DNA of 64,000 nucleotides, from the NCBI RefSeq assembly GCF_026914265.1, contig NC_069129.1:12306269-12370268 (forward strand), in the 5' to 3' direction. Positions within the stretch are counted from its first letter, which is position 1; each line of letters opens with the position of its first letter. The position numbers were made by a program, and so were the translations under genes. The notes under the pieces are model-generated. The model was given only the letters and a program-made list of their open reading frames with translations, was not told the DNA's origin and searched no databases. Positions 32,235 through 58,085 of this stretch are shown here, piece after piece. Source of the stretch: Mya arenaria. Lineage: Eukaryota; Mollusca; Bivalvia; Myida; Myidae.

Positions 32235-35200
32235 ATGAAAAAAACAAAACCTATGACACTGGACAAAATGTTCAAGCGGATGTTTGAAACCGCGACAGCG
32301 ACTGCGTGCCCAGAAGCAACCGGCACGGCACCTTCGGAGCATGCAAACAGCATGGACCTAGATCTATCTGCCACAGAATCTGACAGCACCAAACCTGGAC
32401 AGGCTCAGCCAGTTAAGTCTACCCACAGTGGTCCTTCATATCCTGATATAGCTACTGCGGCAAGTGGAGAACTTGAAGCAAAGTGGAAATGGTCGATATT
32501 GAAAGACACATGGACTGACTGCCATATGTTCAACTTTCCCTCAAGGTAGGTTGTGTTGTCTTTTGAATGCAAAAAAATACAATTAAGTGACACGCAGATT
32601 TAAAAATCCCCAACTCAAGTAAAAATTTAAAATGCAAATTTCCAGTTTATTTTCAATTATACTTCATTGCAACATGGCATGCTTGTGTAAAACGTTGTTT
32701 AACATTTGAGCATACACAATTTCATTGAAGTGTTGTGGGTAAAAACCGAGAAATCTGCCTTTGAATTTATCACTCTAATTTGAGATTTTCCTAAGAAGCT
32801 TTATGAATACGCCCCCAGTCTGACAGACCTTTAAATCTCGATCACGTCGTCGATATTAGTTAAGTATGTAACATATATGTTTAGTCATGCTTTTTACCCT
32901 TAGCCGGGCGGCTACGAAAATTGTCGTCTGCTAAAAATATCGTCTACTTCAATTTTAAATATCGTCCGATTTTCTTCAAATTTGGTATACCCTTTTTCTA
33001 GTATTAAAAAAAACTTGGATCCAGATGAGATACTCGGCGTCTGGTCTGGATTCAAGCTGTTTGAGTAAGCATGAATAGTCGCGAATAGCAGGTACAGGGT
33101 TAGGTAAACAAAATAGTGTAGACCCTAGTTGCATTATATTTTAAACATTTATAGGTTATGGTAGTTGCATCAAAAAAGAGCTTTGGTAAATTTATAATAC
33201 AATTTACCGGACACTTCTTGGTGAAAACTGTTCCTTGATAGAAGTCAGAACCAGGTCAACTAATACATCTTTTGTTTTCTCTTTTGTAGAAGCATCCATG
33301 GGAAAATGAGAAAGCTGTCATCAAGCTGGTTGACAGACCACCCCTGGCTCAGATACTCGATTTCTACAGATGCCTTATTCTGCGCCCCCTGTTTCGTATT
33401 TGGACGGAAAGATGCGAAGGAGAAAACTTTCATCAGTACACCAGTGAAGGATTGGTCCAACCTAGCCAAGTACGTCAAGAGGCACGAATTAGCAGAGTCA
33501 AACCATCACAATGTTACAGCTATGGCGGAACATTTTCTTGATATACAATCAGGTAAGATGGAACCCATCACAAGTTCTGTATCGGACAGTCACAGACGCC
33601 TAGTGGAGCAGAACCGCCATATTCTCAGGAAAATTATAGAAGTAATCGTCCTTTGTGGTAAGCAAAATATCGCTATCAGAGGTAATACAGAAGAACGAAG
33701 CAATTTTTTAGCCATACTGCATTCAAAGGCAGCAGATGACCCTATCCTAGCACAGCATCTAAATGTTCCAGAAAATCGTAGGGCAACATACACATCGCCC
33801 GACATACAGAATGAACTGATCTGTTTGTGTGCTGAGCAGATACAGATCGAAATTGTGCAGGCATGCAATGATGCAGTCTGTTTCGCTCTTATAGCCGATG
33901 AGTCGACCGACAAGTCAACAAAAGAACAGGTGTCCGTGTGTCTGCGATTTGTCCAACGTGGAAGCGGTTCCCAGCAATTTAGAGTCCGTGAAGATTTTCT
34001 TGGATTTGTTCAAGCAAGTAGAACAACTGGCGAGGTACTTGCAGAACTACTCTTGACCTCTCTTGAAAATCATGGAATCGAAGTAGATAAGATGCGGTCT
34101 CAGGCTTATGATGGTGCCGCAAATATGTCTGGAAAGCACAGGGGCGTACAGGCACGAATTCGTCAACGGGTGCCGTCTGCGCTGTATGTACACTGTAGAG
34201 CCCACTGCCTCAACCTAGCAGTTATGCATAGCAGCAAGGACCCATGCATAAGGTCAGTGATGACAACTGTGCAAGAGGTAGGGTTTGCATTTGATTATTC
34301 GGCCAAAAGACTAAACTTCTTTGTTGATGAACTTGCTGCTGACCAAGACGCACAGGAAAAGCTGAAGAAACGCACCAAACTGAGAACTCTGTGTGAAACT
34401 AGGTGGACTAGCCGAGCCGATGCCCTCTCAACGTTCAAGTCAGCATACAGCGTTGTTGTTCATGCCCTTGAACAGCTACAGGAGGATGGCGATGACAAGG
34501 CAGGCCAACACTTGGCGTCGATCATGAAGTTTGACTTCATAATCGGACTGGTCGTTGCTGAGCACGTTATGCAAAGTACAGTTCCGTTGTCTTATCTTCT
34601 TCAGGCAGTCGACTGCGATTTGCTTGAGGCAACGCGAGAAAGTCAAACCCTCATCCGCCAGTTTCAAAACGAAAGGGCAGACCCTAATGTCTGGGAAGCA
34701 TTGTTTCAGAGCGCTAAAGATATTGCAGCAGAATTTGAGATTGAACCTTCAATGCCCCGTCTTGCTCAACGCCAACGAAACCGGGCAAACCCACCGGCCA
34801 ATGATCCACAACAGTATTGGCAGCGAGCTCTCTACTTCCCTTTCTTGGACCATTTGTGTCAAGAACTTAGCGACAGATTGATTGTGGCCGAGGAAAGATT
34901 CCGTGCACAGTACTTGATTCCATCCAAGTTGAACCTTTGCACAGACGGAATGGTGGATCTCATTTTTGCGGGGTATTCGGTGGACCTACCTCAGGGAAAC
35001 CAGTCATTCCATAACGAGGTTAGGCGGTGGAAGGCTAGATGGCAATTGATGGATGAAAATGACAAACCAAGCACATTGGGTGAAACTGTAGCATCAACCA
35101 ATCCGGATCTTTACAAGGGAGTTTATACAGTACTCACCATTCTTCTGACCATGCCGGCATCATCTGCTACTGCTGAACGGAGCTTTAGCGTTATGCGCAG

Positions 35201-35348
35201 GGTGAAAACCTACCTGAGGTCGACGATGCGGACAGAGCGCATGACAGGACTTGCCCTGATGCACGTATATCGGGATGTTAACATTGACATTGACCAGGTA
35301 GTGTCTAAATTCGCTGGAAGCAAAAGCCGAAGGCTTGACTTTGTTTAA
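32235..35348 (+). CDS. hAT transposase, ZMYM1/DUF4371-like, two exons
   Basis: Exon 1 32235-32545, intron 32546-33289 (GTAGGT...TTTTGTAG), exon 2 33290-35348; the join keeps the frame and gives about 789 aa. Exon 1 starts MKKTKPMTLDKMFKRMFE and ends in FNFPSR. Exon 2 continues the TTF-type zinc finger (SSWLTDHPWLRYS, ALFCAPCFVFG). The RNase H-like core shows IADESTD with the first Asp near residue 307, then AYDGAANMSG (second Asp near 378). The hAT dimerisation region NPDLYKGVYTVLTILLTMPA and ATAERSFS carries the catalytic Glu near residue 733. It would excise and insert this element. There is no stop or frameshift, and an AATAAATAAA poly(A) signal lies at 35363. The start was chosen as the first ATG with good coding composition after the CRE sites. 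Family known from many animal hAT genes; an exapted host gene is unlikely because TIRs and target duplication are present. Confidence 0.9.
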
Positions 35349-46345: not shown

Positions 46346-46634
46346 CTATTTATGTTATGCATGTTTCATAATACGAGTTATATATTCAGTTGTATAATAC
46401 TATTATGTATGCTTGCTATTGAAATTGAATATAATATTTTTGAGGTAACGGAAATGTTTTACTGAATAAATGTGCATTGTTTAAGAATAATATATTTGTA
46501 TTATGTTCAAATAAAACTTGTGTTGTATAACCATCTTGTTGATTTGTCCTGCTTTTCGATTTATTGTGCATGGTTCTGCAGCTGCTATAATAGCAAGTGT
46601 CATCCAGTGAAAGGGATTTAACTTGGATTACCAT

Positions 46635-48246
46635 CACTGTCAAGAAACTGTTTAGATCTCAGAGAAAATTGTCCATAAACGTAGCATTATCAAACTGTAC
46701 CATCACTGTCAAGAAACTGTTTAGATCTCTGAGAAAATTGTACATAAACGTAGCATTATCAAACTGTACCATCATTGTCAAGAAACTGTTTAGATCTCAG
46801 AGAAAATTGTCCATAAACGTAGCATTATCAAACTGTACCATCATTGTCAAGAAACTGTTTAGATCTCAGAGAAAATTGTCCATAAACGTAGCATTATCAA
46901 ACTGTACCATCATTGTCAAGAAACTGTTTAGATCTCAGAGAAAATTGTCCATAAACGTAGCATTATCAAACTGTACCATCATTGTCAAGAAACTGTTTAG
47001 ATCTCAGAGAAAATTGTCCATAAACGTAGCATTATCAAACTGTACCATCACTGTCAAGAAACTGTTTAGATCTCCGAGAAAATTGTACATAAACGTAGCA
47101 TTATCAAACTGTACCATCACTGTCAAGAAACTGTTTAGATCTCCGAGAAAATTGTCCATAAACGTAGCATTATCAAACTGTACCATCACTGTCAAGAACC
47201 TGTTTAGATCTCCGAGAAAATTGTACATAAACGTAGCATTATCAAACTGTACCATCACTGTCAAGAAACTGTTTAGATCTCAGAGAAAATTGTCCATAAA
47301 CGTAGCATTATCAAACTGTACCATCACTGTCAAGAAACTGTTTAGATCTCAGAGAAAATTGTACATAAACGTAGCATTATCAAACTGTACCATCATTGTC
47401 AAGAAACTGTTTAGATCTCCAAGTAAATTGTACATAAACTTAGCATTATCAAACTGTACCATCACTGTCAAGAAACTGTTTAGATCTCAGAGAAAATTGT
47501 CCATAAACGTATTATTATCAAACTGTACCATCACTGTTAAGAAACTGTTTAGATCTCCAAGTAAATTGTACATAAACTTAGCATTATCAAACTGTACCAT
47601 CACTGTTAAGAAACTGTTTAGATCTCCGAGAACATTGTACATAAACGTAGCATTATCAAACTGTACCATCACTGTCAAGAAACTGTTTAGATCTCAGAGA
47701 ACATTGTACATAAACGTAGCATTATCAAACTGTACCATCATTGTCAAGAAACTGTTTAGATCTCCGAGAAAATTGTCCATAAACGTAGCATTATCAAACT
47801 GTACCATCACTGTCAAGAAACTGTTTAGATCTCCGAGAAAATTGTCCATAAACGTAGCATTATCAAACTGTACCATCATTGTCAAGAAACTGTTTAGATC
47901 TCCAAGTAAATTGTACATAAACTTAGCATTATCAAACTGTACCATCACTGTCAAGAAACTGTTTAGATCTCCGAGAAAATTGTACATAAACGTAGCATTA
48001 TCAAACTGTACCATCATTGTCAAGAAACTGTTTAGATCTCAGAGAACATTGTCCATAAACGTAGCATTATCAAACTGTACCATCACTGTTAAGAAACTGT
48101 TTAGATCTCCAAGTAAATTGTACATAAACTTAGCATTATCAAACTGTACCATCACTGTCAAGAAACTGTTTAGATCTCAGAGAACATTGTCCATAAACGT
48201 AGCATTATCAAATTGTACCATCATTGTCAAGAAACTGTTTAGATCT
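46635..48246 (+). repeat. 69-bp minisatellite, 23 full copies
   Basis: Twenty-three full units and a partial one. Each unit has AAGAAACTGTTTAGATCTC, AAATTGTCCATAAACGTAGC and ATTATCAAACTGTACCATCA. Copies differ at a few shared positions (TCAGAG/TCCGAG/TCCAAG, TCC/TAC before ATAAAC, ACTGTC/ATTGTC/ACTGTT). The unit is 23 codons, so one frame is open for 560 codons, and the opposite strand is open as well in parts. I treat it as a minisatellite: no start context, no other domain, and the frame is a by-product of unit length. Confidence 0.95.
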
Positions 48247-49221: not shown

Positions 49222-49498
49222 TTGAATGATGTTTCAAAAAAAACATCCTCGTCATTTTTAGATGTCAACAACCTTGTCGCTGAAGTTAACTTAAACAGTA
49301 AAATGGAAAGATTTCCGATCGGATTTTCGCCACCGCCTGCAAAAAAGAGCAAAACCGAAAAAGATAAACAGAAAGATTATGAAATTAGTAGGGAAAGAAC
49401 ATTTCAACAAACATGGTTGAAACAATTAACCTGGATTCCTGTGATTCTTCATATTTGGGATGAAATCAAAGAACCTGGAGAACTATACCAAAGATGTT
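49222..49498 (+). pseudogene. hAT-type transposase N-terminal fragment
   Basis: Reads MERFPIGFSPPPAKKSKTEK, then SRERTFQQTWLKQLTWI, which resembles the basic linker plus R-x-F-Q-x-x-W-L-x-x-F-x-W opening of the zinc finger in ZNF862/KIAA1586-like hAT proteins. The frame is lost after about 90 residues and no core follows. It lies just outside the left end of the large TIR element at 49578. Confidence 0.35.
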
Positions 49499-49577
49499 AA
49501 GATATCATCAGGACTAGTGGTAACACTGCCATAAATCAACCTTTTCATTTACATTTCTTCAGTGGATATTTGAATTT

Positions 49578-49710
49578 CCCAATTTAGTCCAGTCAGTATA
49601 TACTTCAACCTCAAACTAATTGCAACAGAAACAATTTTTCGAGAAATGAATGCTAAAATGATTAAACAACAACATATAAAAAATCGACTAAAATCTATTG
49701 TGGCAAAATG
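49578..49710 (+). repeat. Left terminal inverted repeat of the large element
   Basis: Inverse partner of 57130-57266. The outermost 20 bases are nearly identical apart from one indel (CCCAAT-TTAGTCC against CCCAAAATTAGTCC). An 11-base insertion in the right arm follows, then CAACCTCAAACTAATTGCAA against CAACCTCAAACAAATTGCAA. Inner parts are looser. Confidence 0.75.
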
Positions 49711-50722
49711 GAGAAAATCAAGAATGAAAATCGATATGTTTCCCCTGGATACAGTGACATGATTAGCTCACCATACAGTGTAAAGCGTCTGGTTGATTTG
49801 ATCAAGGTTGTGTGCTAGTGTTTATTCCAATGTGGAAAAACGGATACATACTTGGAACAAGGTAAGGTTCTTATCAGTTTTCATTGTATTTTATAATTAA
49901 TCAATGATAAACGATTCATTTCTGCAAGATAGATATAAGCAGACATATTTAAACTGTCTGAATTAAAAGTGTCATGAGTTTCCGCGGTTTGGAATCAACA
50001 AATAGAAACCAATAATAATTAATTAAATTTCGGAGTTTTTAATATACAGAGAGTTCTGCTTATATATATTTAAACTTAGTTTTGTAAACAAATGACAAGG
50101 TTATGATTAAAAATAAAAAAAATAAAGGAAATTACTAAATGTGACTTTGCTCGATTTTTTAAAGTACGGAAGGCTATTTGTGCCATCTTTTTTAAGAAAT
50201 GATTGTAAAGAAGGGAATAATTTAAGTTTTTAGATATGATTAGTTTCTTAGCAAGTACATAGCTGTTATATTGTTATAATATGATACGTTTGGATCAGAA
50301 ATAATTTATTTTGAAGGTTCTGTCTGCTTGCCTGTCTGACATTGAACATTTTTACAGAGTTTGAACTTTGAGCAAACATATTTTGAACTACAAATTATGC
50401 ATGCCTCGTCTATTCCTTTGTTTATTTATTGAACATTTAAATTTTCATTGCCGATACAATTGTCTCACCTGCATCTGATTCAAAACTGTTCTGATCAGTG
50501 TATTAATTGAATAATTTTAATTTTGTATAATTGTCAAAAATCTTGAATCATTATCAGATGGCGAAAAATTCGGCGTCGAATCTTGATCCAATTATTTTTG
50601 TAATTGTCATAATAGTCATGAGGAGTAGATCGAGTAAGGTTATGTGGATGTGTAGATCTATATATTAGATTTATTTAAATTATTATTCAATAAAACTAAA
50701 TTAAATTGTTTATTTATTTCAG
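49711..50722. other. 5' non-coding region of the large element
   Basis: AT-rich, no gene seen. A possible donor AAG/GTAAGG at 49860-49865 and an acceptor TTTATTTCAG ending at 50722, exactly before the ATG, suggest a leader intron of about 0.86 kb. The first exon would then sit just inside the left TIR. Confidence 0.4.
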
Positions 50723-52228
50723 ATGGGTGATGTTAAAGAAACATGTGTCATCTGTAAAACCATCTTCAAAGATGACGATTTAAAAGCGAAGCTGGGAACG
50801 AAGGGCAGTGATGGCATTAATAGGGCCAGTGCAGATCGTGCGGACAGTTTGATAACTTATCCTGGTGAATCAGTACACATAGATTGTCGCAAAAAATACT
50901 GCAACCCCATAAACATTAAGTACGACAAAAAATCAAAAGATGAGCTTTCTTCACCCCCGAGAGAACTTAGATCATGCAATGAACTATTCAGTTTCAAAGA
51001 GCATTGCTTATTCTGTGGTAAAACAGCAAAACTGTGTGGGAGAAAACGTGGACCTGATGTGTACCCTGTCAGAACTTTAGACTTTCAACTTCAAATTAAC
51101 AGTATATGCACCAAACGAGCAGATGAATGGGCTAACACAATCAGGAGTCGCCTAAAAACTGTAAACGATTTGCCTGCAGCAGACGCTCTGTACCACCAAA
51201 CATGCAGCGTGAATTTCAGGACAATGAAAGCCATGCCTGCAACATATCTTCAAGATTCGTCTGCAGAAAAACGATTTAGGGGGCGACCTGTTTCGTTGAA
51301 TACACAGAGTGCATTTCACTCTGTAATCAAATATTTAGAGGACAATGACAACGAGCAGATAACAATGACAGATCTTGCGGCAAAGATGAAGGAAACGTGC
51401 GGCGATGAAGCATTCGGTACTGTCCATTTGAAGCAGAAACTAAGGGAACACTTTGGGGATTCTATAATCATTACTGATTTGAGTGGGAAAAGAAATGTGG
51501 TGACTCTGAGGCATACAGCATCTTCAATTCTGCATGACTTTTACAAACAGCAAGATAACAATGGCAGTGAGGAAAAGAAAAGGTCTATAATAGAAACTGC
51601 TGCTAAGTTAATCAGAAGTGACATTAAAGCATTAGACAGCAACAAATCTGAATATCCCTCTCCTACTGACATATCTTCTACTGAAAAAAACATAGAGTAT
51701 TTACCAGAAAGCCTTCGAATATTGTTACAAGCAATACTGAGTGAAAAAAAGCCAAAAACTGCATCAATAGGACAGGCTATTATACAAGCTACACGGCCAC
51801 GTGTCATCATACCACCTCTTCAGCTAGGTTTAGGGATCCAGTTGCATCACCAATTTGGTTCCAAGTTTTTGATAGACATATTGAACAGTTTAGGGTTTTG
51901 TGTGTCATATACTGAGGTCCAGAAGTTTGAATCAAGTGCAGCTGTATCTAAAGGGACAGATATTCCTGCATTCGTCCCTGGTAGTTTTGTTCAGTACGTG
52001 GCCGACAATGTTGACCACAACATTAGAACAATAGATGGCCACGGAACCTTTCATGGGATGGGCATCATAGCATGTGTGACCCCTGCTACGTCTTCCATTG
52101 TTCCGATCCAAAGAAGAACAGTTGGGAAGGAGGACATATGCAAAGCTGGAGAAATTAGAATGTCATACTACAAGCCAAACGAAGTCAATGACATATGCAG
52201 AAATACAACAAACAAAGTCCATAGATAA
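50723..52228 (+). CDS. Giant element protein, N-terminal part (zinc modules + central domain start)
   Basis: ATG directly after a CAG acceptor. Two zinc-binding modules: C8-x2-C11 with H52-x2-C55 and C60, then C95-x2-C98 with H158-x2-C161 (YHQTC followed by NFR). From about residue 190 there is a conserved-looking helical domain (FHSVIKYLEDNDNE, MTDLAAKMKETCGD). Near 425-450 comes FVQYVADNVDHNIRTIDGHG and TFHGMGIIACV, whose D-N-x-D-H-N pattern could be the first acidic site of an RNase H-like fold (inference). The family frame leaves this ORF at about 52180-52200 and continues in the next frame; the last 12 or so residues are therefore out of frame. I know this protein type only as large unannotated families in bivalves, corals and fish; no function is established to my knowledge. 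Confidence 0.75.
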   Translation: MGDVKETCVICKTIFKDDDLKAKLGTKGSDGINRASADRADSLITYPGESVHIDCRKKYCNPINIKYDKKSKDELSSPPRELRSCNELFSFKEHCLFCGKTAKLCGRKRGPDVYPVRTLDFQLQINSICTKRADEWANTIRSRLKTVNDLPAADALYHQTCSVNFRTMKAMPATYLQDSSAEKRFRGRPVSLNTQSAFHSVIKYLEDNDNEQITMTDLAAKMKETCGDEAFGTVHLKQKLREHFGDSIIITDLSGKRNVVTLRHTASSILHDFYKQQDNNGSEEKKRSIIETAAKLIRSDIKALDSNKSEYPSPTDISSTEKNIEYLPESLRILLQAILSEKKPKTASIGQAIIQATRPRVIIPPLQLGLGIQLHHQFGSKFLIDILNSLGFCVSYTEVQKFESSAAVSKGTDIPAFVPGSFVQYVADNVDHNIRTIDGHGTFHGMGIIACVTPATSSIVPIQRRTVGKEDICKAGEIRMSYYKPNEVNDICRNTTNKVHR

Positions 52229-53510
52229 CACTTTGAAGCTAGATCTGCTTGTTAAAGTGACAGCGCCAATTAGACCACACAGACCTGTGTGGTCTGGACT
52301 GATGCAAATGTTACAGAAAGGAGAGTATCCAGGAAAAGCCTCAGTTATTTTCATGCCAATGATCGATTTGGATCCAGGAGACTTATCATGCATCTACACA
52401 ACCCTACTGTTTGTGGAAAATCATGCAACTAGGTACGCAGTCACGCCCATACTCACCTTTGATCAGCCCTTATACTGGAAGGCATTTAATGTTATACTCA
52501 ATGAAGCTGCAGATAGCCCTCTTCACAAAGTTGTATTGAGATTAGGCGGTTTCCATACAATCATGAGCTTTTTAGGAAGCATTGGCCATTTGATGCAAGG
52601 TTCAGGGCTAAATGAAGTGTTGGAAACAGTGTATGCATCAAACGCTGTGATGCATATCGCTACAGGAAAGGCAGTTGCAAGAGGTATCAGAGGACACCTT
52701 CTGGTTGAAAATGCACTTATGTCAATATTAGTCTCAGAAGTGTTTGGTCTGAACATTTCAGAGTGTAGCACCAATGAAAATAACTCAACTCATGGTGAGG
52801 ACAATGAGGATGAACACCTACAGCTAAAAGATGACAACACTCCATTGCCAGATAGTATGATCGGTGACATTGGAAAATTGTATGATGACTTTACAGACGG
52901 AAAATCAAATATGTCAGATATTACGCAATCCGAGTTACTGGATAACGCTTGTACAAAACTTGACGAAACCAAAGATGAAATGAGAAAATTCAGAACAGCA
53001 GCTCTTTGGTTGCAATACATGGAAATGGTTCACATCCTACAATCATTTGTAAAAGCGGAGCGAACTGGTGATTGGCTTCTTCACCTTGACACAGTTTCTC
53101 GAATGCTTCCTTACTTTGCAGCAGCAGGACACAACCTGTATCTCAAATCTGCATATGTGTACCTACAGACTATGCAAACTCTCGAAAAGACTAACACAGA
53201 TGTGTATGAACATTTCAAAACTGGTCATCATGTAGTGCGTAGAAGTGATAGGTTCTGGGCGGGACTTTCAACAGACCTTGTAATCGAACAAGTGTTGATG
53301 AGAAGTGTGAAGACTAATGGAGGCCTAACAAGAGGAAAGGGCATGACTGAATGTCAACGAGCACTATGGTTACTTTCTCTACCTGCCTGTGCAGAGTTCA
53401 ACAAAAGTATGCAAGAGTTCAGTGGAGTTACATATCATACAAGTGAGCAGCACAAGGAATGTGGTCAGGCAAGGATTGCGAAGGACACAAAAGACAGTCA
53501 AACCATCCTG
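52190..53510 (+). CDS. Giant element protein, central part
   Basis: Continues the preceding protein after a single frameshift, in the frame of 52098-53609, without any stop for 440 codons. Landmarks: KVTAPIRPHRPVWSGLMQML, SVIFMPMIDLDPGDLSCIY, TPILTFDQPLYWKAFNVIL, then LRLGGFHTIMSFLGSIGHLM and NAVMHIATGKAVARGIRGHL. A highly acidic linker follows (52790-52990, EDNEDEHLQLKDDN), then MEMVHILQSFVKAERTGDWL and AAAGHNLYLKSAYVYL. The D in TFDQPLYWKA, the GGFH motif and later Glu residues are candidates for a nuclease/transposase active site, by pattern only. It stops at ATC CTG (53505-53510), where a 1132-bp element is inserted; residues beyond 53510 in this open frame belong to the insertion. Confidence 0.75.
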
Positions 53511-54642
53511 CAGGGTTTCCGCCAGCCCTTTATGGCTTGTCGGGCCCGACGTGCCTTCCGCTGGCAAGGCCAATTACCGACATGCGTTAATTATGCCGAC
53601 ATGCTTTAATCCGCGTAGCGACAATCCTTATCAAAACAATCATCAGTTTTGACAATACACGATTTTGTTGCGATTGCAACGGTTGACTGACAGCCAGAAG
53701 GCGTGTCGGGATTATTACGACATTTGTATCAGCCATTCAGGATCGACGACAGCATGAAGGCGTGTCGGTGAGGTTCCTCCAAACTCCTCCTATTCTTTAT
53801 CAGAATGGGAATGTGTGGAAAAACACCACTGTCGTAATTGCGACCTTCATCCCTATAATCATCTATGAACGCATAGTAAACAATAAGTGTTAATTGATTT
53901 CGGTAACATAAATCATGTGTCGTTTTATTTTGTTTCTTAATCCCGAGTCCGTTTGTTAACCAATTATTAAATTATAATTGAGAACCGTGTTAAGATATCT
54001 GTGTTATTAACAAGGGTTATGCTATGTCGTTGTAATTAATTTGAGTCGCGTTCCCGTCTTTAGTTTAAAAGTGTAAAGTTATATTTTGTGTTGCTTATTA
54101 TTAACCTTTGATTATTTTATCGTTCTTTTAATTTATTTAGAAAAAGATAAATAAATCTGAAAATACACATTACATTCCCTTTAAGTTATTATTTAGCCAA
54201 CCCGGCTTTAAAAATATTAGCTGTTGCAGCTTTAAATACGAATACACGAGCAGTCGCTTTGCTCCGGGCTCTTTTGTGTTCCGGCATGCAGCGTGCTTTA
54301 CACGTTTTGCTGTGACGTCAACGGTGTCAATATAAATAATACCCGCACTTAACGAAACATGAGTAGATCAATATCGTCGATATTGTATTGTCGGAAAACT
54401 TGAGAAATACCAATAATCAAGGAAGAGAAACCATTAAACCTTTTCACAAATAATTTTAATGTTAATCGGACTTTAGTTGGTAATTCTAAATCATGGGAAC
54501 ATAACTGTAAACTTGTTTAAAATGCAGGAAATTGCACCATTTTGGATACGAAAATATAAAAAAAATCGACGTCAGGAGGGGACACCCCTCCCAAACCCTC
54601 CCCTTCCGACATGCCTTATGAAATTCCTGGCGGAAACCCTGA
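53511..54642. mobile_element. 1132-bp TIR element inserted in the giant gene
   Basis: Ends CAGGGTTTCCGCCAG (53511) and the inverse GGCGGAAACCCTGA (to 54642). A subterminal ATAAGGCATGTCGG-like word is present on both sides. It is flanked by ATCCTG at 53505-53510 and 54643-54648, a 6-bp target duplication. The host frame reads ATC CTG on both sides in the same codon phase, so excision with loss of one copy would restore it. No transposase. It contains TGACGTCA (54313-54320) 10 bases before TATAAATA (54331-54338), and about 160-200 bp shared in inverse orientation with 38041-38245. A CAGGG terminus and short duplication suggest a hAT relative. Confidence 0.88.
54313..54338 (+). promoter_or_regulatory. 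CRE site plus TATA box inside the 1132-bp insertion
   Basis: Perfect TGACGTCA at 54313-54320 and TATAAATA at 54331-54338, the spacing and order of a simple RNA polymerase II promoter pointing right, toward the downstream half of the giant gene. Motif match only. Confidence 0.4.
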
Positions 54643-56289
54643 ATCCTGGATTTTCTTCTTGAAAGAAGTCCTTTCACACGTGATTCAAAGCTCAGAAACA
54701 TTGAAACTGGCGTTGAAGCAGATTCATCTGTGGATGTTGAAAATTCATCAGAGATTGGCAACAAAGTTATCGCATCAATGGCTGGAAAATGTGTGCTGGA
54801 TCATACGTTTAAGAAAAAGCAACAGGCTGTTGTACTTACCACAAAACCACTCGTCAAATTGTCAGGTGATGAAACCATTCAAGTTGATCCCCAGCTTTTG
54901 TTTCAACGTCTTATCACAGTAGCACTTAGACAGGATGATGACATATCCCACTATTTTGAATATGAATTGAGTAGTGTTCCGTCAACCTTGTTTGATGCAT
55001 GTGGTTTTCCAAAACAACCACAAAAGGCTACTTTAGCTGATGCAATATGGTCTTTGGGAAACTGCAGTGGGGAAGAATCTGATCATCAGCAATATCAGTA
55101 TGTTTTGGATGGGGGATCTTTGATTCACCGGTTACCATGGACACAAGGTGCTACATTTGCAGACATTTGCAATGCATATACAGAATATATATCAAAGCAG
55201 TACAATCAACCAATTGTAGTTTTCGATGGATACATGGCTGGGCCCTCGATTAAAGACGTTGCCCATATCAGACGTTCACATGGAGTCACAAGTACCAATG
55301 TTGATTTCAAAGGCACAACACCATTCAGGGGAAAGAAAGACAAGTTTCTGTCAAATCCAGAAAACAAGCAGCGATTCATCAACCTGCTTGGTACCCACCT
55401 CTCACAGCATGATTGTACCGTGTTACATGCACCAGATGATGCAGATGTTCTCATTGTCAAAACCACAATTGAATGTTCTGAGACATGCAAAACAGTCTTG
55501 ATAGGAGAAGATACCGATCTTCTTGTATTACTGTGCTTCTATGCAAGCCATGACAGCTTCAACATACTTTTCAGATCTGGCTCTAAGAAGCATGCGGGGA
55601 AATCTTTTAAGACGTGGGACATACAAAAAACACAAGAACTAATCGGAGACAATGTATGCAAAATGCTGCCTTTTATTCATGCATATACTGGTTGTGACTC
55701 TACTTCTAAAATCCAGGGAATCGGTAAAGGGGCAGCACTTAAGCGGTTCAAGACAGATAGCCAAATGCTGACATATGCGAAGGTTTTCAATGCCAAGAGT
55801 GACAAATCTGAAGTTCAGAAAGCAGGTGAAAATGTGATGGTTGCTCTTTTTGGCGGTCATGAGACCGAAGGATTAGACCTCCTTAGATTTAGAAAGTTCG
55901 CCAGAAAAGTAGCAATCGGCACTACATGTGTTCAAGTACACTCAATTCCACCTACATCAGCAGCAGTGAAGTTCCACTCTTTGCGGGTATACTACCAGGT
56001 CCAGTGCTGGACTACAGACGCCGATGATATGCTGCCAACAGATTGGGGATGGCATGTCAGGAACCAGATGCTGTATCCAATAAAAACAGACATATCATCA
56101 GCGCCAGAGAGCCTATTGAAAATCATCAAGTGTAACTGTAAAAGTAACTGTGACTCTAAAAGGTGCACCTGCAGAAAACATGGACTAGACTGTTCTGTGG
56201 GTTGTGGGGAATGCAAGGGCATTCAGTGTTCAAATGTACACAGCCCGACAGAACCGGATATGGTGGATGACGCCTACATCGATGAATAG
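54643..56289 (+). CDS. Giant element protein, C-terminal part: PIN-like nuclease + CXC domain
   Basis: Resumes at the duplicated ATC CTG and runs 548 codons to TAG. It opens DFLLERSPFTRDSKLRNIET and a helical stretch. A FEN1/XPG-like PIN domain follows: IVVFDG (Asp codon at 55225), APDDADVLIV (55435-55446), GEDTDLLVLL (Asp codons 55510 and 55516), and HAYTGCDSTSKIQGIGKGAA (Asp at 55695) with a helix-hairpin-helix-like G-I-G-K-G. These acidic residues are in the order used for metal binding by structure-specific nucleases. The C-terminus (56131-56235) is a tesmin/TSO1-type CXC domain, CNCKSNCDSKRCTCRK then GCGECKGIQCSN, a cysteine-rich zinc and DNA-binding fold. The last residues are acidic. 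Expected role: DNA-bound nuclease acting in the element's own mobility; this is inference. No stops or frameshifts in this part. Confidence 0.82.
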   Translation: MLDFLLERSPFTRDSKLRNIETGVEADSSVDVENSSEIGNKVIASMAGKCVLDHTFKKKQQAVVLTTKPLVKLSGDETIQVDPQLLFQRLITVALRQDDDISHYFEYELSSVPSTLFDACGFPKQPQKATLADAIWSLGNCSGEESDHQQYQYVLDGGSLIHRLPWTQGATFADICNAYTEYISKQYNQPIVVFDGYMAGPSIKDVAHIRRSHGVTSTNVDFKGTTPFRGKKDKFLSNPENKQRFINLLGTHLSQHDCTVLHAPDDADVLIVKTTIECSETCKTVLIGEDTDLLVLLCFYASHDSFNILFRSGSKKHAGKSFKTWDIQKTQELIGDNVCKMLPFIHAYTGCDSTSKIQGIGKGAALKRFKTDSQMLTYAKVFNAKSDKSEVQKAGENVMVALFGGHETEGLDLLRFRKFARKVAIGTTCVQVHSIPPTSAAVKFHSLRVYYQVQCWTTDADDMLPTDWGWHVRNQMLYPIKTDISSAPESLLKIIKCNCKSNCDSKRCTCRKHGLDCSVGCGECKGIQCSNVHSPTEPDMVDDAYIDE

Positions 56290-57129
56290 GTATAATGGTG
56301 ATTTAGGCAGGGTTAAGGCATGTACTTTAAAACACTCTAGGTGCAAAGTACATACAACTTATCATACTACAAGGTTACACCTAATAGTTAAATACTGTCA
56401 TCTGTAAAAACTCTCCTCTGTTTCAACTTCACCAGATTCACAAAAATATAGTAAAGCTATACATCTATATGTGCAAATATCAATTAGCATTGATCCGGTC
56501 CAACCCTTGAGTAACTCTGCTACTGTTCTAGATCCAAATGTTCGATAGTTGGTTCATGTAGATCTATAGCTGAATAAGAAATTAGTGCTTTATTCTCCTC
56601 TGTTTGAACTTCACCAGATTCACTAAAATATAAGAAAACTTTAAATCTATATGTGCAAGTATCAATCGGCATGGATCCGGTCTAACCCTTGATTAACTAT
56701 GCGACTGCTCTAGATCCACCTGTTCGATAGTTGGTTCATATAGATCTATAGCTGATTAAGAAATTAATGCTTTGATGAAACATCAAGACTTACATTGGTT
56801 TATAGTTATACAAGTATTACAGAATTGTTTGATGTATAAATCTAATTATGCACTGTAGAAATATGATGTGAACCGTATGCCTTGGGAAATGGTGGGTGGG
56901 GTAAATACCCCCCTTAAATTCTATAAAAAATGCTTGAGTATTGGATAAAATGGATATAAACAAGCTTTTTTATTTACTTTACATATTATTTAAAGTCATA
57001 TTATCAATAGCCATGTAAAATAATATTTTCTTTATGCATTGTATAATTTTACATGGATAATGGTAATTTACTGGCTTTTTTCGTGTTGTTTTGGGTCATC
57101 ATAGAAATATTAAAAAAAAATAAAGTTCG
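56290..57129. other. 3' non-coding region of the large element with a ~185-bp duplication
   Basis: Holds two tandem copies of about 185 bp (roughly 56410-56595 and 56596-56772), both with CTCCTCTGTTT-AACTTCACCAGATTCAC, TCTATATGTGCAA, GATCCGGTC and TAGTTGGTTCAT. The rest is AT-rich. No gene seen. Confidence 0.75.
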
Positions 57130-57266
57130 CCTTTATAGATTTTACTAGATTTTTTTGTGGTAGTCTGGATATCATTAGGCTTTTGAAATCGTTAAAAATC
57201 ATTTCTGTTGCAATTTGTTTGAGGTTGACCTAAAAATGCTCACTTACTGACTGGACTAATTTTGGG
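57130..57266 (-). repeat. Right terminal inverted repeat of the large element
   Basis: Inverse partner of 49578-49710; the outer edge is GGG at 57264-57266. See the left repeat for matching words. Confidence 0.75.
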
Positions 57267-58085
57267 TTTCTTGGAATGGTCCGGTCCTTTGACAATAAAC
57301 AAAAAGTAGCACCGCAGAAAGTCCCATCAGATAGGTTATTAATTGAAACTGATTCCCCATACCTGAAATTGCTAAAGGCTGCAAATATGAATAATCCCTA
57401 GTTTATTGGGGATGTAGCTGCATAAATGGCCTAATGCCGAAACTCAACAGTAAAAGACATCTGTAGCATAACAAGGAAAATCCTTATATAATTATGTTTA
57501 TATATGTTTTATTTTTAGTTTACCTAAATGTGCCATGAAACAGGGTTTATGTTTAAAAATTTGGCAACTGAGTTAAAAATGTCATATAAATATTTATTTA
57601 AAAAGGCAGTTTCAAATTTAGAAATTAGTAATTTCAGGACAGTACTGATGAAACCTTACAACAGTACTGACTGTACTGTGAAGTGTGATTTAGTTTTAAT
57701 GACATAAAACGATTGGTGTATTGAATGCAGCAGAGTTAGAGCACTGCTGAGAAATAGGGAATATTGACAGAAAGCAGCTAAATCTTCAATAAGGAAACCA
57801 TTCACACATTTTAACTATAAACATTCAAATATGGGCAAAATAAAGTTGATGATGAAAATAAATGTGCAGAAAAATGAAACAAAAAACCTCAAGTCAGAAG
57901 TCAAGAAAGTTAAAAAGACAGCTAACAAAAAATCCAGGTTGAGGGACAGACCTTAAGTGAGGTTGTTGAGTCATTTGAACTTTGTGATCTGATGGCTACA
58001 TGTGATACAAAAGTAAATCAGCATACCCAGATGAAAATTCATTTCAGAGGTTCAAAACATTCTGGCAACAGTGGAAGAAATCAAC
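57267..58085. other. No supported gene
   Basis: AT-rich. A short lysine-rich frame at 57829-57950 (MGKIKLMMKINVQKN and on) could be the coiled-coil part of the transposase that follows, but this is weak. Confidence 0.3.

Follow-up and report, generated by a model that had tools for sequence, protein, structure and literature searches.

The stretch analyzed here (the window) comprises 64,000 nucleotides of Mya arenaria contig NC_069129.1 (positions 12,306,269 to 12,370,268 of the forward strand) and contains a recently active, now broken cut-and-paste transposon. The element lies between 3-bp target site duplications and carries imperfect terminal inverted repeats; a large gene encoding a multi-domain protein fills most of the space between them (Table 1). 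An earlier note on this DNA had reported inverted repeats of about 130 bp. The repeats are real but imperfect, pairing with gaps over ∼115-125 bp, and their local alignment score of 67 was matched by none of 4956 pairs of 140-bp segments drawn at random from the window (best random score, 54). The edges given in that note, 49578 and 57266, were ruled out: in the alignment, the element's limits are 49585 and 57258, and the copies diverge at 49585 and 57258/57259. Edges that fail to coincide with 49578 and 57266 were among the refuting outcomes named in the note, which therefore applied in part. The extra bases outside 49585/57258 consist of the 3-bp duplication and a chance symmetry of the flanks.

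Table 1. Features of the transposon, in window positions.
Feature	Position	Strand	Details and basis
Whole transposon	49585..57258	+	7,674 bp (6,542 bp once the nested insertion is subtracted); edges common with C10 copy (both ends) and C12 copy (5' end)
Target site duplication, left	49582..49584		ATT
Target site duplication, right	57259..57261		ATT
5' terminal inverted repeat	49585..49698	+	imperfect, 14 terminal bases perfect; local alignment with 3' end
3' terminal inverted repeat	57135..57258	-	imperfect
Possible short first coding exon	49708..49791	+	predicted; comparison with deposited C10 gene model
Transposase gene, broken	50723..56289	+	frames 50705-52225, 52080-53606, 54643-56286
Zinc module 1, CxxC ... 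HxxC	50744..50887	+	conserved columns; putative zinc binding
Zinc module 2, CxxC ... C ... HxxC	51005..51205	+	conserved columns; putative zinc binding
Predicted DDE transposase core	52004..53288	+	structure model of the same region in C10 copy, structural matches, conserved triad
Nested insertion, not part of the transposon	53511..54642		1,132 bp; ends CAGGGTTTCCGCCAG / CTGGCGGAAACCCTG; ATCCTG on either side
XPG/FEN1/EXO1-type nuclease domain	55021..56040	+	
CXC cysteine-rich region	56131..56229	+	cysteine conservation in relatives

Searching the genome (18 contigs, 1.216 Gb) with the 5' end of the element (49585-49900), in a procedure that skips very common words, identified three genomic places (3/3 candidates scored). 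The window copy aligns from both ends to a copy on C10 (L039), where the deposited protein is MAR_032399, and from the 5' end to a copy on C12 (L040), where it is MAR_014737. All three copies start with TAGTCCAGTCAGTA immediately after dissimilar flanks, and both the window and C10 copies end with TACTGACTGGACTA. The flanking bases are ATT/ATT at the window copy and AGA/AGA at the C10 copy; equal 3-mers arise by chance in 2.0% of random pairs in the window. Differences over the shared parts of the three copies amount to 16/6525, 12/4799 and 21/4810 aligned bases, and from this near-identity we infer recent movement.

Alignment of the copies together with their flanks, a check proposed in the earlier note, revealed common edges, 3-bp duplications and uninterrupted target repeats. 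When the window flanks were joined with one ATT, they aligned across the junction to all five flank-repeat copies fetched (L004-L008) at 76-77% identity. With the element and one AGA removed, the C10 locus reads through the junction in an open frame at least 395 codons long. Near the window junction, the repeats are six bases longer than the joined sequence, and the window's repeat also lacks 25 bases ahead of the junction; the joined flanks thus give the ancestral target only approximately. The repeat holding the element extends over about 49433-49584 and 57262-57460 and is dispersed, with 37 matches listed for its left part; its translation, judged by eye, presumably resembles a TatD-type DNase motif.

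The earlier note had described one intronless frame of about 1,475 codons. The size agrees with that of the relatives, 81 of the 120 listed being 1,420-1,530 aa, but in the window copy the long frames are three, split by a frameshift and the nested insertion. The frameshift lies near 52.18 kb, where the window copy lacks 11 bp that both other copies have. The nested insertion is missing from the C10 and C12 copies; since both lack the stretch and it has inverted ends of its own, an intron at 53.5-54.6 kb was ruled out. The absence of introns is doubtful at the 5' end of the gene, where the C10 gene model MAR_032399 (P0121) begins with 28 residues matching window 49708-49791 and continues with residues from 50723; a short first exon is thus predicted and possible. 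Damage differs from copy to copy, with a 326-bp insertion and altered reading at the CXC end in the C10 copy, and stops and a changed frame in the C12 copy. The 4.2 kb following the break in the latter did not contain its 3' part, as would fit either loss or a larger insertion. The proposal of an autonomous mobile element with a multi-domain protein holds insofar as this is a DNA transposon, but the window copy is broken and therefore unlikely to be autonomous today. Inside the element, downstream of the transposase gene, a 182-bp unit is tandemly duplicated at 56412-56773 (two copies, 88%). No Rfam family reached its gathering score anywhere in the window.

Two N-terminal zinc modules, a FEN1/XPG-like domain and a CXC pattern had been noticed previously, and the corresponding Cys/His columns and C-terminal cysteines were recovered in alignments of relatives. 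Counting rows having a letter, the columns of the first module are conserved in 46/46, 48/48, 54/54 and 54/54 rows, and those of the second in 55/55, 54/54, 54/56, 56/56 and 55/56; this pattern suggests that both modules bind zinc. For the central domain, for which the earlier note had proposed structure prediction as a check for an RNase H fold, modeling predicted a DDE-type transposase core with an RNase H fold and a helical insertion ahead of the last acidic residue. The predicted triad codons (D, 52004-52006; D, 52461-52463; E, 53286-53288; checked in the window) correspond to D32, D188 and E463 of the C10 frame (numbering from L039:3658), and D, D and E are present in 58/58 alignment rows. 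The best solved-structure matches of the core include P element, Transib, Hermes and RAG1, with 6-10% identity. The DDE call is limited by a Foldseek comparison of the core with the PDB, which gave no match at E ≤ 0.001; DDE recombinases came top only in the second structural comparison that followed. The C-terminal nuclease domain shares its fold and acidic active-site positions with EXO1/FEN1/XPG, at 14-15% identity to the best EXO1 and FEN1 rows. In the CXC region, seven cysteines are invariant and two nearly invariant (alignment A2, 48 rows); Tesmin/TSO1-like CXC is the source-database name of some relatives.

The same anatomy was found in two other families in the Mya genome. Family B (L046, L047) was recovered only over the region that corresponds to residue ∼730 and beyond; its termini are TAGTCAAGG / TAGTCCAGG and its duplications ATA and TTA. 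Family C (L048 and L049, with L050 and L051) has stop-to-stop frames of 1,621 and 1,620 codons, termini with TAGTCGGGAGTCC at both ends, and the duplications TTA and CAA. When it is compared with a Mercenaria relative, identity is ∼26% across residues 284-1466 of that protein, with the order kept. L048 (C14) and L049 (C4), members of this more distant lineage with the domain order kept, are ∼99.4% identical over 7.8 kb, and the lineage was likely recently mobile. Across families A, B and C, a 3-bp duplication flanks every copy readable at both ends (6/6; ATT, AGA, ATA, TTA, TTA and CAA), a count that excludes four loci for which both ends were not obtained: the C12 copy, L044, L045 and, from family C, the C13 copy. 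In L044 the gene is enclosed by inverted repeats of 48 bp, but a CCAT microsatellite adjoins the 5' edge and no duplication was readable; L045 yielded the 3' terminus only, and the C13 copy the 3' edge only. Besides the three copies, nine loci showed matches to the element's ends, with edges that agree only loosely: TAGTCCAATCA in L017 (the same place as L045), TAATCCAATCA in L030-L033 (overlapping stretches at two places), TAGGC-like in L019, L036 and L037, and none clear in L021.

Relatives at E ≤ 0.001 numbered 792 proteins with the C-terminal part and 911 with the 1,075-aa C10 frame; the best 120 of each were listed. In line with the earlier note, the listed relatives include molluscs, cnidarians and fish: molluscs (Mytilus, Mercenaria, Argopecten, Patella and Littorina), corals (Porites and Montipora), an anemone (Actinostola), a bony fish (Aldrovandia) and a hagfish (Myxine), together with Holothuria and Nymphon. 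Many animal proteins filed as uncharacterised or "Tesmin/TSO1-like CXC" may be transposases. Searching the Mya genome with the nuclease part gave 96 matches (83/466 candidates scored); these are pieces, several of which may come from one copy. NCBIfam gave no match for four relatives, the literature searched does not mention DUF6589, and viral contigs scanned with alignment A1 contained no confirmed relative (34 pattern matches, 0 by tblastn).

The inverted repeats, 3-bp target duplications and near-identical copies are a cut-and-paste-like anatomy. The N-terminal zinc modules, and perhaps the CXC region too, would bind the element ends; the large protein would pair the ends and then cut and join through the DDE site across a 3-bp stagger. 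The XPG-type nuclease may act on 5' strands or flaps, cutting or trimming them at the ends or at the gaps.

The earlier note could name no transposase class for this protein, yet a DDE core joined to a nuclease, with 3-bp duplications, fits AcademX. According to the accessible part of PMC10045372, AcademX has duplications of 3 or 4 bp and is linked to a nuclease, whereas AcademH has duplications of 9 or 10 bp and is linked to a helicase. The window element has a predicted DDE core, a nuclease, 3-bp duplications and terminal inverted repeats, and therefore all testable AcademX features are present. No helicase family was among the Pfam matches of the 11 sequences scanned, which together with the 3-bp duplications separates it from AcademH, alike in superfamily by description. 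The element thus very probably belongs to the AcademX lineage of the Academ superfamily, as judged from described features. The AcademX nuclease is XPG-like, and hAT target duplications are 8 bp, unlike the 3 bp here. The likeness to P element, hAT (Hermes) and Transib/RAG1 is at the level of the fold only, namely a predicted RNase H core into which helices are inserted, and none of these transposases is known to carry an XPG nuclease; EXO1/FEN1/XPG are host DNA-repair enzymes, not transposases. The clam family offers a clean anatomy for an AcademX-like element, with exact ends, 3-bp duplications, uninterrupted target repeats and near-identical sisters. Among other sources, the available part of PMC3706591 does not mention Academ, and PMC5718144 contains neither Academ nor XPG as a whole word.

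Several observations weigh against the AcademX assignment and would suit an animal DNA transposon superfamily apart from Academ, a zinc-zinc-DDE-XPG-CXC family with 5'-TAGTC ends and 3-bp duplications that captured its XPG nuclease independently, for end processing. The link to Academ is one of description; Pfam gave no Academ label for the sequences scanned; and the zinc modules and CXC tail go unmentioned in the Academ descriptions as far as these were available. Relatives also occur in gastropods and corals, whereas Academ is expanded in bivalves and nearly absent in other molluscs (PMC10294476, accessible part). That same bivalve expansion matches the clam host, and the combination of transposase, nuclease and 3-bp duplications is the published AcademX one, which leaves a separate superfamily unlikely.

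It is less likely still that the large gene is cargo whose ends are moved by another transposase. Movement of the ends by the large protein is proposed from its sequence and predicted structure; the invariant triad of the predicted DDE core and the retention of the gene with the same end type in three families speak against a passenger. Another reading, in which a FEN1-like domain belongs to a host gene (or a family of such genes) that lies between inverted repeats by chance, would be in keeping with relatives filed as uncharacterised, hypothetical or CXC proteins. The common edges and the target duplications contradict it, as three near-identical copies have the 5' end in common and two of them the 3' end and 3-bp duplications; the uninterrupted target repeats and the two further families also oppose it, and we regard it as extremely improbable.

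Elsewhere in the window, a 680-aa open frame at 33306-35348 with DUF4371 and hAT dimerisation domains represents a hAT-type transposase gene. A 225-aa frame at 42511-43188 matches GDSL lipase weakly (E 2.1e-05), short of the Pfam cut-off. At 46629-48246, a 69-bp tandem repeat (23.4 copies, 95% match) is open in one frame, giving a 560-aa repetitive open reading frame.
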